From contig NZ_LT629703.1 of the NCBI RefSeq assembly GCF_900103365.1, positions 868,001 to 932,000 of the forward strand: 64,000 bases of DNA. The letters run 5' to 3'. Shown here in pieces: positions 14,290-19,807 of this stretch (position 1 is the stretch's first letter; every line of letters begins with the position of its first letter). The notes beneath the pieces were generated by a model. That model did not search any database, was not told the origin of the DNA, and saw only the letters and a program-made list of their open reading frames with translations. A program made the translations under genes and the position numbers. Origin of the DNA: Afipia sp. GAS231 (lineage in GTDB: Bacteria > Pseudomonadota > Alphaproteobacteria > Rhizobiales > Xanthobacteraceae).

Positions 14290-15168
14290 CTAGCTTTTTT
14301 GTCGCTTCGTCTTGGGAAGCACCATCCTGCCCTGTGAAGCAATGCCCTCCCATTTGGCGGACCAGGTGATTTCCGAGGCGGAGGATCGCTCGATGCCCTT
14401 CTGATCCCACGCCCCCTGCAGCGCAAACAGGGCGCCTTGGGGATCGACACATCGCACGATCCAGCAATCATCGGGCAACTCGATAGGCCCTTGGAGAACC
14501 CGACCGCCGCGAGCATTGACCCGCCTGGCCGCCGCGCCGACGTCGTCGACATTGAAGTAATGGAGCCAACACGCCTGCGATACGCCCGGAAGCTTGGTGA
14601 GCATGCCGCCGATCGTCTGCCCGGCCGCCGAAAACAATTCATACACGCTTGCCGGGTCGGCTTCGGCGGAGGCCTGTTGCCAGCCGAGAAGCTCGCCGTA
14701 AAACGGAAAGACCTTGCTTCGGTCTTCAGCCAGCAACTCGTGCCAGCCCACACGCCCGGGCTGGTCCAACCCGCTCGGTTGCGATTGGCCATATGTCAGC
14801 CCTGTGACCAGCGCAAGCGTCGCTCCTTGCGGATCGGCGACCACCGCAATGCGGCCGATGTTGCTGTCGGTCGGCGATACCAGGATCGCGCCCCCAAGCC
14901 GGCGGATCTGCGAGGTCCTCACATCCATGTCATCGACGGCGACGTAGCCGAGCCATCTCGGCGTTGCTCCCATTCGCACCCCCTCTTCGGGGAGATCCAT
15001 GAGCCCGACGACCGGAGCGTCGCCTGCAGTCAGCAGCGTGTAGGCAAGTTCCGGGCTCGACGCATCTTTCACGGTCCAGCCGACGACCTCGGCGTAAAAG
15101 GCAGCCGCCGACGGCCTGTCCGTCGTCAGAAGCTCATACCAAGCGAAGCGTCCGAGTTGATCGACCAA
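14290..15168 (-). CDS. VOC family protein with two glyoxalase-like domains
   Basis: Two vicinal-oxygen-chelate units are recognisable: residues 1-125 (RFAWYELLTTDRPSAAAFYA, WLGYVAVDDMDV) and 135-255 (VGWHELLAEDRSKVFPFYGE, WLHYFNVDDVGAAA). The duplicated FYxxxxGW pattern is typical of CFP32-like glyoxalase-fold proteins. Residues 255-292 are an extra polar tail. Substrate unknown. It is divergent from the RiPP precursor gene. Confidence 0.85.
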   Translation of the reverse strand: MVDQLGRFAWYELLTTDRPSAAAFYAEVVGWTVKDASSPELAYTLLTAGDAPVVGLMDLPEEGVRMGATPRWLGYVAVDDMDVRTSQIRRLGGAILVSPTDSNIGRIAVVADPQGATLALVTGLTYGQSQPSGLDQPGRVGWHELLAEDRSKVFPFYGELLGWQQASAEADPASVYELFSAAGQTIGGMLTKLPGVSQACWLHYFNVDDVGAAARRVNARGGRVLQGPIELPDDCWIVRCVDPQGALFALQGAWDQKGIERSSASEITWSAKWEGIASQGRMVLPKTKRQKS

Positions 15169-15312: not shown

Positions 15313-15341
15313 TTGCTCGCCCTGTTTGCTAGGCGTAGGAT
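15313..15341 (+). promoter_or_regulatory. Possible promoter of the RiPP cluster
   Basis: TTGCTC (15313-15318) and TAGGAT (15336-15341) are spaced 17 bp, giving a start near 15348 and a short leader before the SD at 15371. The match to consensus is moderate. Confidence 0.35.
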
Positions 15342-15383: not shown

Positions 15384-15833
15384 ATGCAGCGGACGAAGCA
15401 AGCTTCGAAACAGAAGCGAATGACCAAAGCAGCAGTACCGGCGCTCGGTTTCGCCGGACTGACTTTTTCGCTGGCCGGAAGCGCGGCGGCGTCCGCGGTG
15501 CCGCCAGGCGAGCTTCAACAAAGGCCGAACTTCGCGCCCGGCCAGTTCACCACGCTCAGCGAGGAAGAACTCGCGGACGTCAGCCTCGCCACCTTCCATC
15601 TCGCCAACGATGAGAAAACCTTGAGCGGCGTGCTGCTCGCGCGGGGATGCGGTGGCTGTCGTGGCTGCGGCGGTGGCTGCGCGGCCAGAGGTTGCGGTGG
15701 CTGCAGAGGTTGCGCAGGCTGCAGAGCCTGTCGCTGCGGCGTCGGTTGCGGTGGCTGCGGCGTTGGCTGGATCGGCGTGGGGGTGGCATGCACAGGGTGC
15801 TGTGCATCATGGGGCCGCTGCCGCTGGTGCTAG
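15384..15833 (+). CDS. Cys/Gly-rich RiPP precursor (TOMM / linear azol(in)e peptide type)
   Basis: The peptide has 149 residues. Residues 15-38 are hydrophobic and signal-like (TFSLAGSAAASA). Residues 45-87 form an acidic leader (LSEEELADVSLATFHLANDE). Residues 88-149 form a core with 17 Cys, many Gly, seven Arg and no acidic residue; the leader has no Cys. The unit RGCGGCRGC occurs at 87-95 and again at 102-110. GGAGG lies 8 nt before the ATG. Cyclodehydratase and dehydrogenase genes follow on the same strand, so the cysteines are probable thiazole precursors. The product and its activity are unknown. An internal ATG at 15420 would shorten the N-terminus. Confidence 0.85.
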   Translation: MQRTKQASKQKRMTKAAVPALGFAGLTFSLAGSAAASAVPPGELQQRPNFAPGQFTTLSEEELADVSLATFHLANDEKTLSGVLLARGCGGCRGCGGGCAARGCGGCRGCAGCRACRCGVGCGGCGVGWIGVGVACTGCCASWGRCRWC

Positions 15834-15875
15834 ACAACAGCGCTCCCTGACTGTGTATCGACAAGTCACGATTTC

Positions 15876-15917
15876 ATTGGCCGGGCTCGCAAACGACCCG
15901 GCCAATTTGCTGTTTTT
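15876..15917 (+). terminator. Intra-operon hairpin/terminator between precursor and enzymes
   Basis: ATTGGCCGGG (15876-15885) and CCCGGCCAAT (15897-15906) form a perfect 10-bp stem with an 11-nt loop, followed by TTGCTGTTTTT. It lies 43 nt after the precursor stop and before the cyclodehydratase start. It could end most transcripts after the precursor, letting it exceed its enzymes. Confidence 0.65.
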
Positions 15918-15968
15918 GTTGAGGCGTTCGCTGCGCCTGGCTGGTCAGCTTGCCGATGGCGAGCGAGT

Positions 15969-18335
15969 ATGTTCCAACTTATTCGAAGATGGCCGGTGGT
16001 CGAGCTCGGCGCACAAGTCGGGCCGGGCCAAGCGTTCGTCGTGCGCCGGCAATCGGAAATGACGGGAACAGGATCAGCGTGCTGCCCGATGACAGTCAAT
16101 CGAAAGAGTCGCGCTGCGCGGCAGACCCGCAAGAGCATTTTGCGATTCGCGCCGAACTTCACCGCCTATCTGCTTCCTCCCAATGTGGTCTGTCTCTACT
16201 CGGAGAACCGCAAGTTCTTCCTGCACGGCGATCTGTATTGCGCCGTGGCGAGCGCGATCGGAAAAAATGGCAAGGCTGCGCCGGAGATCATCCGCCAGCT
16301 TTCGAAGAGTTTTCCCGTCGCCGAGATCGAGGAGGCGATCAGGCGGTTGTTGGAGCGCCGGTACGTCGTCAGTGGAGCATCGCACGCATACGCAGGCGCC
16401 GTTGATGGATATTGGGCAAGCCTCGGCCTGCCTCCCGAGGTCGCCGAAGAGAACCTGCGCAATTGGCCCGTGCGGGTGGAATCGATCGATGTCAAAGGCG
16501 CCGGCGAACTGAGCGCGGCGTTGAGCAAGCTCGGGGTTCAAATCACCCAGCGGTCGCCCAGGCTCATCATCACGCTTGTGAACGACTACCTCGAACGGCG
16601 GCTCGCCGATGTGAACACGGGACGCGTGGCCGACGGGACGCCCTGGCTGCTGGTCCAGCCGTCCGGCGTGTTTCCACTGGTGGGGCCTGTATTCAAGCCG
16701 GGCGAAAGCGCCTGCTGGACCTGCCTGTTCGATCGCATGATCCGCAATCGCGAGATCAAGGGATTTCTCGACCGCGGAGCGGCGCAAGCGGTCGCCGTAT
16801 CGCCCCTGGTCAACGACACCGTAGGACAGACCGCGATCCACTTCGCTGCGGTTGAAATCGCGAAGGCGATCGCCTCGGGATTTCGTACTGACCTCAGCGA
16901 TCACATCGCAAGCTTCGACCTGACCGGGGCTGCCATCGCCAGGCACTACGTCGCAAAACGCCCGCAATGTCGGACCTGCGGCAGCAAGAAGCTGCGGAAT
17001 CCGCGACGGGCAGCAGTGCCGATCGACATTGCCGAGGGCAGACGGCTCGTCATGACCAGCGGCGGATACCGCACCGTGACGTCGCGAGCCACCGTGGCGC
17101 GGTTCCGCAAACATGTCAGTCCGCTGACCGGCGTGGTGTCGCGGCTCGAGCGGATCGAGGCCGATCCGCCGATGAACACCAATTTTTTCGCCCACCACAA
17201 TTTCTCTGCGCCGGCCTGGAACGTCGACCAGCTCAGGTCCGCCCTGAGCGGCGGCAGCTTCGGCAAGGGCTCCACGGCCGAGCAGGGCGAGGCGAGCGCG
17301 CTGATGGAGGCGATCGAGCGCTACTCGGGCATTTTCCAGGGTGACGAGATCAGGACGAAGCGCCGCTTTGCCGATTTCGCTCCCGGTGACGCTCTTCTTC
17401 CCAACGACGTCCAGTTCTTCAGCGACACGCAGTTTCAAAACAGGCATGCCCCGCAGCCGGACGATTCACATCCGGTTCCCGAACCGTTCGACCCCTCGAC
17501 CAGGACCGAGTGGTCGCCGGTCTGGTCGTTACGCGACAAGCGCTTCAAATATCTTCCGACCGGCCTGCTGTATTTTTTCTATGGCGGCTTCCACACGGAT
17601 TCCAACGGGTGCGCGGCCGGCAACACCCGCGAGGAGGCCATCGTTCAAGGCTTCCTCGAACTGGTCGAACGCGATGCCTACGCGATCTGGTGGTACAACC
17701 GCGTGCGGCGTGCCGAAGTGGACCTCACGCAATTCGAGGATTCCTACGTGCGGGATCTTCAAGACCAGTTTGCCGATGCGGGGCGCCGGCTCTGGGTGCT
17801 CGACATCACCAGCGATCTCGGCATTCCCTCCTACGTTGCGATCATCCACTGGATGCAGAACGGACGCGAAAATATCGAGTTCGGTTCCGGCTCGCATTTC
17901 GATCGCCGCATAGCTCTGCTGCGTTCCCTCACCGAGCTGACCCAGTTCATGTCGATTGGCATGATGGACGGCGGAAGCGGCGAGAAACCGTCGCTTGACG
18001 GTGTCACGCCGCTGCGGCTGGACGATTATCCGTTCCTGATCCCCAGCGACAATCCAATCGTCCCGCCGGCGCCAGGCATCAAGGTGCACGACAATACGCG
18101 CGACCAGGTCAATGCCTGCGTCGAGATTGCGGTCCGAGCAGGATACGATTTCCTCGTGCTCGACCAGACGCGGCCCGACGTCGAGGTCCCTGTCGTCAGA
18201 GTGCTTGTTCCAGGCTTGCGGCATTTCTATCGCCGCTTCGGGCCCGGCCGGCTTTACGACGTCCCGGTGAAGCTTGGGCTGCTGGATCGCCCGCGACTGG
18301 AGAGCGAACTCACTCCGTTCCTGCCGCACACCTGA
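15969..18335 (+). CDS. TOMM cyclodehydratase: fused ThiF-like leader-binding and YcaO domains
   Basis: This 788-residue protein joins two modules. Residues about 55-360 are the ThiF/E1-like TOMM docking module with two CxxC pairs (Cys249/252 and Cys334/337), a likely structural zinc site; it binds the precursor leader. Residues about 385-788 are a YcaO domain with ATP-binding signatures (GKGSTAEQGEA at 432-442, MEAIERYSG, GNTREEAIVQGFLELVERDA). YcaO enzymes use ATP to cyclise Cys, Ser or Thr onto the preceding amide. The annotated start is uncertain: ATG at 16059 or 16089 lies closer to the first conserved segment (RFAPNFTAYLLPPNVV). GTG at 18350 follows its stop by 14 nt. Confidence 0.9.
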   Translation: MFQLIRRWPVVELGAQVGPGQAFVVRRQSEMTGTGSACCPMTVNRKSRAARQTRKSILRFAPNFTAYLLPPNVVCLYSENRKFFLHGDLYCAVASAIGKNGKAAPEIIRQLSKSFPVAEIEEAIRRLLERRYVVSGASHAYAGAVDGYWASLGLPPEVAEENLRNWPVRVESIDVKGAGELSAALSKLGVQITQRSPRLIITLVNDYLERRLADVNTGRVADGTPWLLVQPSGVFPLVGPVFKPGESACWTCLFDRMIRNREIKGFLDRGAAQAVAVSPLVNDTVGQTAIHFAAVEIAKAIASGFRTDLSDHIASFDLTGAAIARHYVAKRPQCRTCGSKKLRNPRRAAVPIDIAEGRRLVMTSGGYRTVTSRATVARFRKHVSPLTGVVSRLERIEADPPMNTNFFAHHNFSAPAWNVDQLRSALSGGSFGKGSTAEQGEASALMEAIERYSGIFQGDEIRTKRRFADFAPGDALLPNDVQFFSDTQFQNRHAPQPDDSHPVPEPFDPSTRTEWSPVWSLRDKRFKYLPTGLLYFFYGGFHTDSNGCAAGNTREEAIVQGFLELVERDAYAIWWYNRVRRAEVDLTQFEDSYVRDLQDQFADAGRRLWVLDITSDLGIPSYVAIIHWMQNGRENIEFGSGSHFDRRIALLRSLTELTQFMSIGMMDGGSGEKPSLDGVTPLRLDDYPFLIPSDNPIVPPAPGIKVHDNTRDQVNACVEIAVRAGYDFLVLDQTRPDVEVPVVRVLVPGLRHFYRRFGPGRLYDVPVKLGLLDRPRLESELTPFLPHT

Positions 18336-18349
18336 AAGGCCGGTCTTCC

Positions 18350-19807
18350 GTGCGCGCTCCCCGCAAAAAGCCGACCAGGAAGATCGCGTCCGTCATCACC
18401 GCCCGATTGAACGGTCATTTCTCCCTGCAGATGCAGGCGGACGGGAGCATCACCGTCTTCGTGGACGGCTATTCCGTCAATCTGGGACAATTGAGCACGG
18501 CCGCGATGGACCGCGCGCGAAATTTGACCGATGGCCTGCCGCTCGCGTCCTTTGCCGGCAAGAGCGCCATCGCGAGGGAAGTCGACGTCCTGGTGCATCG
18601 ACTGGCGCGGCACGGGCTGCTCGAATATCGCCTGTCTTTTCCGCGTGACGAGCAGGTTCTCGTGGTCATCGAGCCCCAGGTCCCTGACTACTGGCCGCAA
18701 CGCGCAAGGCTCGGTGAGGGTGACAGCGTCGTGTTGTCGCGCTTTGCCAACCTGCGCCGGCGCGGCAACGAGATGGTACTGGAATCGCCGCGCTCAGGCG
18801 CGCTGTTTCGAATTGGCGATCCCGCGATTGCCGCCACCCTCGCTGCGCTGTCGCGGCCTCAGAAGATCAGCAGGCTTCGCCGCCATGTGACCTTCTTCAA
18901 CCTCGATCTGTTCGAACTGCTGCTGGATAGCCAGTTCCTGCTCAAGCTCGATGCGAACAGCGGCGACGGCCTTCGGGTGAATGAAGGCGACGGCAATCTT
19001 GTTCTCTGGGATTTCCATGATCTCGTGTTTCACACGCGGAGCACGGAGGGCCGACAGGCCAATCCGGTTGGCAGCACCTTCGCCTATGCAAGCGTTGTTT
19101 CACCGCTGCCCGCGGTGCGTCCGCCTTGGCCCGGCAAGAAGATCGACCTGCGCAAATTCTTCACCTGGGATCCGATCTCGCCCTTCCTAAAGCTGTTGCG
19201 CGACCGCCATTCAGTCCGAGATTTCGATGACGAGCATCCGGTCACGCTCGCCGAACTCGCGCGCTTTCTCGACACCACAGCCCGCGTCCTGTCGGAATGG
19301 AAGAGCGATGCGAATTTCGAAGGCGGTCCTGAGATCACCTACAGCACAAGACCCTATCCATCGGCCGGTAGCGCGTACGAACTGGAATTGTATCTGACGG
19401 TCTCGAACTGCGAGGGGCTTGCACGCGGACTTTACCACTACGACGCGGGCGGTCACGCGCTGGTGGCGATCGGGGCCTCCGCACAGCAACTCCAGGCACT
19501 TTTGGCGGCAGCCGAGTTTGCCATGGACGCACCCGGTCCGCCTCAGGTCTTGATCACGATCGCCGCGCGTTTTGGACGGATCTCCTGGAAATACAGCTCA
19601 ATCGCATATTCGCTGATCCTGAAGGATGTCGGCAGCATGATCCAGACGTTCTACCTGACGGCGACCGATATGGGCCTTGGTGGCTGCGCCATCGGCACCA
19701 GCAACATCGATCTGTTTGCAAAAATGACGGGGCTCGAATTCCACGTAGAGGGTCCGGTCGGTCAATTCGCGCTCGGACGCGGCAAGAAGCTGCTGGTCGC
19801 AAACTAG
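18350..19807 (+). CDS. SagB-type FMN dehydrogenase of the TOMM cluster
   Basis: This 485-residue protein has a GTG start with GAAAGG 10 nt upstream. Residues about 270-485 form the nitroreductase-like SagB domain: RHSVRDFDD, RPYPSAGSAYELELY, and a C-terminal FMN-binding stretch SWKYSSIAYSLILKDVG followed by ATDMGLGGCAIG. The N-terminal 250 residues are the extension often seen in ThcOx-type proteins. In TOMM pathways this enzyme oxidises azolines to azoles with FMN. It is the last gene of the cluster; no transporter or protease follows. Confidence 0.9.
   Translation: MRAPRKKPTRKIASVITARLNGHFSLQMQADGSITVFVDGYSVNLGQLSTAAMDRARNLTDGLPLASFAGKSAIAREVDVLVHRLARHGLLEYRLSFPRDEQVLVVIEPQVPDYWPQRARLGEGDSVVLSRFANLRRRGNEMVLESPRSGALFRIGDPAIAATLAALSRPQKISRLRRHVTFFNLDLFELLLDSQFLLKLDANSGDGLRVNEGDGNLVLWDFHDLVFHTRSTEGRQANPVGSTFAYASVVSPLPAVRPPWPGKKIDLRKFFTWDPISPFLKLLRDRHSVRDFDDEHPVTLAELARFLDTTARVLSEWKSDANFEGGPEITYSTRPYPSAGSAYELELYLTVSNCEGLARGLYHYDAGGHALVAIGASAQQLQALLAAAEFAMDAPGPPQVLITIAARFGRISWKYSSIAYSLILKDVGSMIQTFYLTATDMGLGGCAIGTSNIDLFAKMTGLEFHVEGPVGQFALGRGKKLLVAN

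Follow-up and report, generated by a model that had tools for sequence, protein, structure and literature searches.

A putative linear azole-peptide RiPP cluster with a cysteine-rich precursor and a regularly present VOC gene in Afipia sp. GAS231

Our analysis of a 64,000-nt stretch of the Afipia sp. GAS231 genome (contig NZ_LT629703.1, positions 868,001 to 932,000; here referred to as the window) revealed a compact locus comprising a cysteine-rich precursor, a fused ThiF-like/YcaO heterocyclase, a SagB-family dehydrogenase and, divergent from them, a gene encoding a VOC protein of the glyoxalase/bleomycin-resistance superfamily. Judged by its gene content, the locus very probably encodes a linear azole-peptide (LAP/TOMM-type) RiPP pathway, and it looks like a known pathway type in an apparently new form, with the VOC gene as a regularly present fourth member. 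Three features that characterize LAP/TOMM pathways are present: an azoline-forming YcaO protein with a leader-binding domain, a SagB/McbC-type dehydrogenase, and an adjacent small precursor with a conserved leader and a Cys-rich core. The initial annotation had proposed a compact TOMM-type RiPP cluster; with the family cut-offs, the co-occurrence of the genes and the fourth gene, this is still the best-supported reading. The precursor, YcaO and SagB genes were correctly listed in it, but the divergent VOC gene, a stem-loop, the organization of the leader and the additional precursors had been omitted.

The precursor and its processing enzymes

The precursor gene (15384..15833, forward strand) encodes a 149-amino-acid peptide, and its ATG is preceded by a Shine-Dalgarno-like GGAGG at a distance of 8 nt. 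Recounting the composition reproduced the earlier description in full: residues 1 to 87 are free of Cys, and the 62-residue core (residues 88 to 149; 15645..15830, forward strand) contains 17 Cys, 22 Gly, 7 Arg, 1 Ser and 1 Thr and no Asp or Glu. The unit RGCGGCRGC had been reported as an exact duplication, and two exact copies do start at residues 87 and 102 of the protein; however, the DNA of the copies differs, so that their identity holds at the protein level only, and the first copy starts one residue ahead of the 62-residue core. The peptide ends with the tail CCASWGRCRWC (15798..15830, forward strand), and the pattern CC.[SR]WG.CR.C is found at the C terminus of 56 of the 67 precursors that we tabulated. 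The adjacent Cys pair of this tail could give rise to a bithiazole. The predicted structure of the precursor was uninformative (mean pLDDT of 47.5), and the precursor matched no family in Pfam, NCBIfam or PHROG. One of its homologues (P0129) carries a UniRef name of the heterocycloanthracin/sonorensin type, i.e., Cys-Xaa-Xaa bacteriocins that presumably share a Gly/Cys-repeat core with the window peptide. This label is not supported, given that NCBIfam, which we take to hold a heterocycloanthracin precursor model, returned 0 families for the precursor at an E value of ≤0.1.

Downstream of the precursor, the fused cyclodehydratase and the SagB dehydrogenase named in the initial annotation were both confirmed by family models above their cut-offs. 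The fused leader-binding/ThiF-like and YcaO protein is encoded on the forward strand by a frame that opens at position 15969; since most of the 120 homologues listed are approximately 748 amino acids long, a start at 16089 is likelier, which yields a 748-amino-acid protein (16089..18335). It passes NCBIfam model TIGR03604 narrowly (221.9 bits; cut-off of 219.25) and TIGR03882 with a wide margin (146.7 bits; cut-off of 36.9), and databases already label its homologues as TOMM leader-binding proteins. Among solved proteins, it is nearest to two heterocyclases of cyanobactin pathways, LynD (E value of 5e-142) and TruD. The LynD alignment runs nearly from end to end (YcaO residues 17 to 743 of 748) and retains the NGxAAGNTxEEA...ELVERD block, which we take to be part of the ATP site. 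The SagB-family dehydrogenase (485 amino acids; 18350..19807, forward strand) matches PF00881, carries a ThcOx N-terminal domain (PF22767) and passes TIGR03605 (186.9 bits; cut-off of 78.4). CyaGox is its nearest solved relative (E value of 6e-51 over 355 aligned residues), and McbC is a far weaker one (E value of 1.3e-6). The microcin B17 logic invoked earlier is thus apt in so far as a YcaO/SagB azole RiPP is concerned, but the nearest solved enzymes are LynD/TruD and CyaGox. A 457-amino-acid open frame opposite the YcaO gene (16074-17447, reverse strand) was taken as a high-GC shadow ORF.

From this gene content we infer a route in which the leader segment LSEEELADVSLATF would dock onto the fused heterocyclase at its N-terminal part, and the YcaO domain of this enzyme would use ATP to convert core cysteines to thiazolines; the ThcOx-like SagB protein would then oxidize these to thiazoles. 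The predicted product is a linear cationic peptide, rich in Arg and Gly and very dense in thiazoles, the mass of which would fall by approximately 340 Da if all 17 Cys reacted.

Distribution of the cluster in related genomes

The initial annotation had raised the case of YcaO/SagB loci that lack the Cys-rich ORF. We observed the opposite. The leader was found in 85 of 195 same-genus genomes, each of which also has a close YcaO, and a close YcaO without the leader occurs in a single genome, G571, which is 81% complete and holds a 245-residue YcaO end piece. Among 35 linked loci (window included), SagB was detected in 33 by ORF clustering and in one more (L010) by tblastn; the stretch of a further locus, L026, ends inside YcaO. 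Precursor, YcaO and SagB genes adjoin in the linked loci, and this adjacency holds down to a leader identity of 39% (L045) and is also seen at 35% in L083, from a genome (G238) of another family of the order. Across 32 loci, the distances of leader, VOC, YcaO and SagB sequences correlate (Mantel r of 0.73 to 0.95; 0 of 999 permutations as high), much of which could be explained by shared host ancestry alone.

Beyond the genus, an order-level search retrieved the leader in 7 and YcaO in 8 of 397 genomes, one of these YcaO proteins (G137) being only 39% identical. At the class level, a broader leader profile retrieved 1 of 385 genomes, the organism's own, and a plasmid collection contained the leader in one Bradyrhizobium record. 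Several divergent fused YcaO proteins of 34 to 39% identity (G457:C1:4138073, G487:C1:6584429, G559:C11:82289, G476:C3:2944 and G137:C155:15424) apparently belong to other TOMM families. In locus L084 (G212:C149:57567-59691; genome 88% complete), the YcaO match is in two pieces, one with a stop codon, and may represent a broken gene or an assembly error. A carbamoyltransferase gene lies directly 5′ of the precursor-YcaO-SagB genes in L083 (L083:5808-7508).

The divergent VOC gene

The fourth gene (14290..15168, reverse strand) encodes a two-domain VOC protein of 292 amino acids (PF18029/PF00903) and is divergent from the precursor gene. ORF clustering placed it in 34 of the 35 YcaO-linked loci. 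It occurs in the same 85 of 195 same-genus genomes as the precursor leader, and in 84 of these 85 the two genes adjoin divergently. It stays in the locus despite a changed gene order in L045 and L084, and it is missing from the stretches examined at L031 and L083. The VOC fold is supported by the Pfam match and by structure-search matches; among the matches listed, the model is nearest to Rv0577 and then to AbxF, in fold as well as in sequence. The identity to these two-domain proteins is 29%, and the genomic setting of the window gene differs from theirs. Eight aromatic residues (W10, Y11, W72, Y75, W142, W201, Y204 and F205), all on predicted strands, are invariant in the 19 aligned VOC proteins, as are H143 and E144. 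At the other VOC strand positions inspected, we found no second or third conserved His/Glu ligand, and the usual metal triad of VOC proteins, which we take to consist of His/Glu ligands, is not evident in this protein. As side observations, G576 has a second VOC match (40% identical) away from its leader matches, and L096:7026-8649 harbors a second divergent precursor-VOC pair, which is additional to the full cluster of the same genome and has no YcaO within the 16-kb stretch examined.

Collectively, these data make the VOC protein a candidate binding/self-protection protein or tailoring enzyme. Bleomycin-binding proteins protect producers by binding the drug, and by analogy we give an about even chance to the view that the VOC protein binds the azole product and thereby protects the producer cell. 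Bleomycin-binding proteins were not among the best 50 matches each of Foldseek and VIA, which does not count against a role of this kind. The fold match itself is silent on thiazole binding, and AbxF, among the closest VOC structures, is titled as an enzyme. A somewhat less probable alternative, with the same chemistry in the rest of the pathway, is that the VOC protein acts on the peptide as a tailoring enzyme, as AbxF does in an antibiotic pathway, and is not a resistance protein. This alternative draws on the nearest matches after Rv0577 being AbxF, titled as catalyzing spiroketal formation, on the two invariant residues H143 and E144, and on the way in which the gene tracks leader and YcaO through 85 genomes; against it speak the lack of an evident conserved metal triad, the orientation of the gene, which diverges from the enzyme genes instead of following their direction, and the VOC gene not being seen near L031 and L083.

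Neighboring genes and comparison with known systems

A dedicated exporter or immunity gene is common, though not universal, in LAP/TOMM pathways. No dedicated exporter or protease gene, including a PatA/PatG-type one, recurs in most of the 35 linked loci, and apart from ORFs overlapping the precursor, the genes shared by over one-third of these loci are limited to VOC, YcaO and SagB. No peptidase S8 was detected among the 16 window proteins scanned (precursor excluded). Genes for an uptake-type peptide ABC transporter do lie within 10 kb of some linked loci (ABC_tran/oligo_HPY in 11, BPD_transp_1 in 9 and SBP_bac_5 in 10 of 35; names from the annotation of L031), mostly among loci of a single related group, on varied sides and at varied distances. 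They are located at approximately +5 to +10 kb in L008-L011, L020-L022 and L024 and upstream in L028 and L031. Since they are of the uptake type and vary in position, they are unlikely to be a dedicated exporter, but they may have a role in this group of loci. An OpgC gene is present near 6 of the 35 loci. The window neighbors scanned include GH1, luciferase-like, SpoU, sulfatase, GH17, beta-lactamase-family, TctC and histidine kinase proteins, a NicO-like protein that scores just under the cut-off, and some proteins without a match.

The enzymes resemble those of cyanobactin pathways, with a fused leader-binding and YcaO protein like LynD/TruD, aligned nearly end to end, and a ThcOx-type oxidase like ThcOx/CyaGox. 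In contrast to cyanobactin precursors with their short cassettes, the window peptide has one long core of 62 Cys-rich residues; a signal-peptide-like N terminus and a VOC partner further set the locus apart, and we do not class it as a cyanobactin cluster because a protease/macrocyclase gene does not recur in it. With LAPs such as microcin B17, phazolicin and klebsazolicin, the locus shares YcaO and a dehydrogenase, but its core is much longer and almost purely Cys based, its leader lacks a family match, and it has a VOC gene and no recurring exporter. Anabaenasin TOMM clusters, as described in the accessible part of PMC4603692, likewise have Gly- and Cys-rich precursors; however, they are cyanobacterial and encode separate C and D proteins, unlike the fused protein of the window, and the string "rhizob" occurs 0 times in that part of the paper.

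Azole peptides are known from rhizobia, with phazolicin bearing an azole at every third residue (PMC7136475 and PMC6783444, in the text available). In 2019, only two RiPPs from the order Rhizobiales were counted as characterized in the available text of PMC6783444, and the TfuA-related clusters of Bradyrhizobium are of a different type according to the accessible part of PMC8120280. One alternative is that the locus encodes a microcin B17-like LAP that targets gyrase or the ribosome. The presence of YcaO and a dehydrogenase, the weak relationship of McbC to the SagB protein and the precedent of phazolicin, a ribosome-targeting LAP from a rhizobium (available text of PMC6783444), are compatible with it. 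We nevertheless consider it unlikely, as the enzymes are much nearer to cyanobactin enzymes, the core offers one Ser and one Thr, and no exporter recurs.

Our searches of the literature, with few subscription papers within reach, brought up no description of the cluster among the matches listed. If the LAP/TOMM-type reading is true, 85 of the 195 sampled genomes of the genus are equipped to make a ribosomal peptide of unusual thiazole density, for which the literature searched gave neither a product nor a function; a role in rhizosphere competition would be plausible. The compact cluster, consisting of a precursor, two enzymes and one candidate resistance gene, should be easily rebuilt in a laboratory host. 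It would allow one to test whether cyanobactin-type heterocyclases handle many cysteines within one extended core, whether Sec can serve as the exit route of an azole peptide, and whether a VOC protein can protect against ribosomal thiazole peptides.

The leader and the additional precursors

The leader combines two distinct elements. Residues 16 to 36 (15429..15491, forward strand) form a hydrophobic stretch that follows a basic N terminus (charge of +6) and ends with A-x-A, resembling a signal peptide. In 24 of 24 aligned precursors, A34 and A36 are invariant and the residue between them varies; in a wider alignment, A36 is retained in 16 of 16 sequences and A34 is substituted in L083 and L084. 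This layout suggests that the peptide may leave the cell by Sec and not by a dedicated ABC exporter, a proposal for which the case is about balanced, as the best 14-residue mean hydropathy is a modest 1.62 and the sequence is conserved beyond what a generic signal peptide would require. A cut at A-x-A would leave residues 37 to 87 on the core, so that a second protease would be needed.

The second element, residues 58 to 71 (15555..15596, forward strand), is a probable heterocyclase recognition motif, as suggested by the alignment of 24 precursors, in all of which E61, E62, D65, V66, L68, T70 and F71 are invariant. The window precursor reads LSEEE in this segment and most relatives read LGEEE, which resembles the LAELSEE motif published for cyanobactin leaders (PMC5460452 and PMC4558948, in the text available); the shared LSEE is suggestive at most. 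PDB searches with the leader returned no cyanobactin precursor chain, and the matches at E values of 0.66 to 0.79 were unrelated proteins.

The 85 leader-bearing genomes contain 134 leader matches, one of which (G411) spans model positions 1 to 25 only. More than one match was found in 22 genomes, which together account for 71 matches, with a maximum of seven in G448, and the extra precursors are scattered through these genomes. Our table of 67 precursors combines two sources, may include the same genome twice and leaves out L106 (the same as L037) and L105 (at a contig end). It comprises 24 orphans, with no close YcaO in the stretch examined, and 43 linked precursors, a count that includes L018 and L030, both on contigs that stop short of where YcaO would be expected. 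The orphans retain the leader and differ in the core, and the number of Cys per whole precursor ranges from 5 to 21. Within the 195 genomes, YcaO accompanies the leader without exception, which is compatible with a single enzyme pair processing several precursors. Six orphans from several genomes (L097, L098, L099, L104, L109 and L112; three copies in G448) resemble one another in their short-Cys cores and end in nearly the same Pro-rich basic tail.

A more ambitious reading would place the peptides in a Sec-exported thiazole peptide family distinct from the LAPs known so far. A single chromosomal heterocyclase/oxidase pair would serve the scattered precursors, the CC tail would form a bithiazole-type head group, and a two-domain VOC protein of the Rv0577/AbxF type would sequester the product as self-protection. 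As a whole, we regard this combination as possible but doubtful. Less probable still is a nonantibiotic role, modeled on the bufferin-like logic of Cys-rich metal or redox peptides, in which a partly cyclized, metal- or redox-active peptide would reside in the periplasm or be secreted. The signal-peptide-like leader, the very high Cys content, the scattered extra precursors with 5 to 21 Cys each and the lack of an exporter recurring alongside would suit such a peptide, but a heterocyclase and a dehydrogenase would remove its thiols, and no metal-related gene is shared by a majority of the linked loci.

Constraint on the reading frame and the intercistronic stem-loop

Compared with seven relatives, the precursor shows dN/dS ratios of 0.05 to 0.23 in the core and 0.17 to 0.36 in the leader. 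Synonymous change thus exceeds nonsynonymous change in both parts, which indicates a genuine, constrained reading frame with purifying selection on its Cys-rich core. Relatives of the precursor were found at at least 46 loci in a scan of GTDB genomes, 41 of these 46 in records named Bradyrhizobium, and 3,688 of 4,220 candidate database proteins matched it at an E value of ≤0.001. The repetitive GGC/TGC DNA does produce several overlapping frames, but the notion of a GC-rich chance ORF without relation to the enzymes was ruled out, its probability being negligible in the face of the core dN/dS, the relatives at these GTDB loci, a leader detectable in other families of the order and the YcaO found in 85 of 85 leader genomes.

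Upstream of the precursor, we read a weak promoter-like pair from the sequence, TTGCTC and TAGGAT with a 17-nt spacer (15313..15341, forward strand). Among the upstream regions of the 43 linked precursors, ATCTTGC occurs in 19 and GGCGTAG in 21. A scan for promoter and terminator consensus sequences yielded nothing useful; it did not list the TTGCTC/TAGGAT pair, and its loop limit misses the 11-nt loop of the stem-loop between the precursor and YcaO genes. This stem-loop, ATTGGCCGGG-N11-CCCGGCCAAT followed by a T-rich stretch (15876..15906, forward strand), begins 42 nt 3′ of the precursor stop codon. The pattern GGCCGG-N5-20-CCGGCC lies within 200 nt of the stop codon in 38 of 43 linked precursors versus 1 of 24 orphans, and there are 24 other occurrences in 1.23 Mb of these loci; TTGGCCGGG-N5-13-CCCGGCCAA was found at a single place in the organism's own genome. 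The element is a probable attenuator/terminator or processing signal. On the simplest reading, it would be an attenuator that probably lowers transcription into the enzyme genes and so keeps the precursor above the enzymes. In 22 loci the stem letters are near invariant, with one pair altered on both sides in some, an invariance that is partly due to selection, since these loci were picked for having the stem-loop. Within this chosen set, the conservation of the stem letters seems to exceed what a generic terminator would require.
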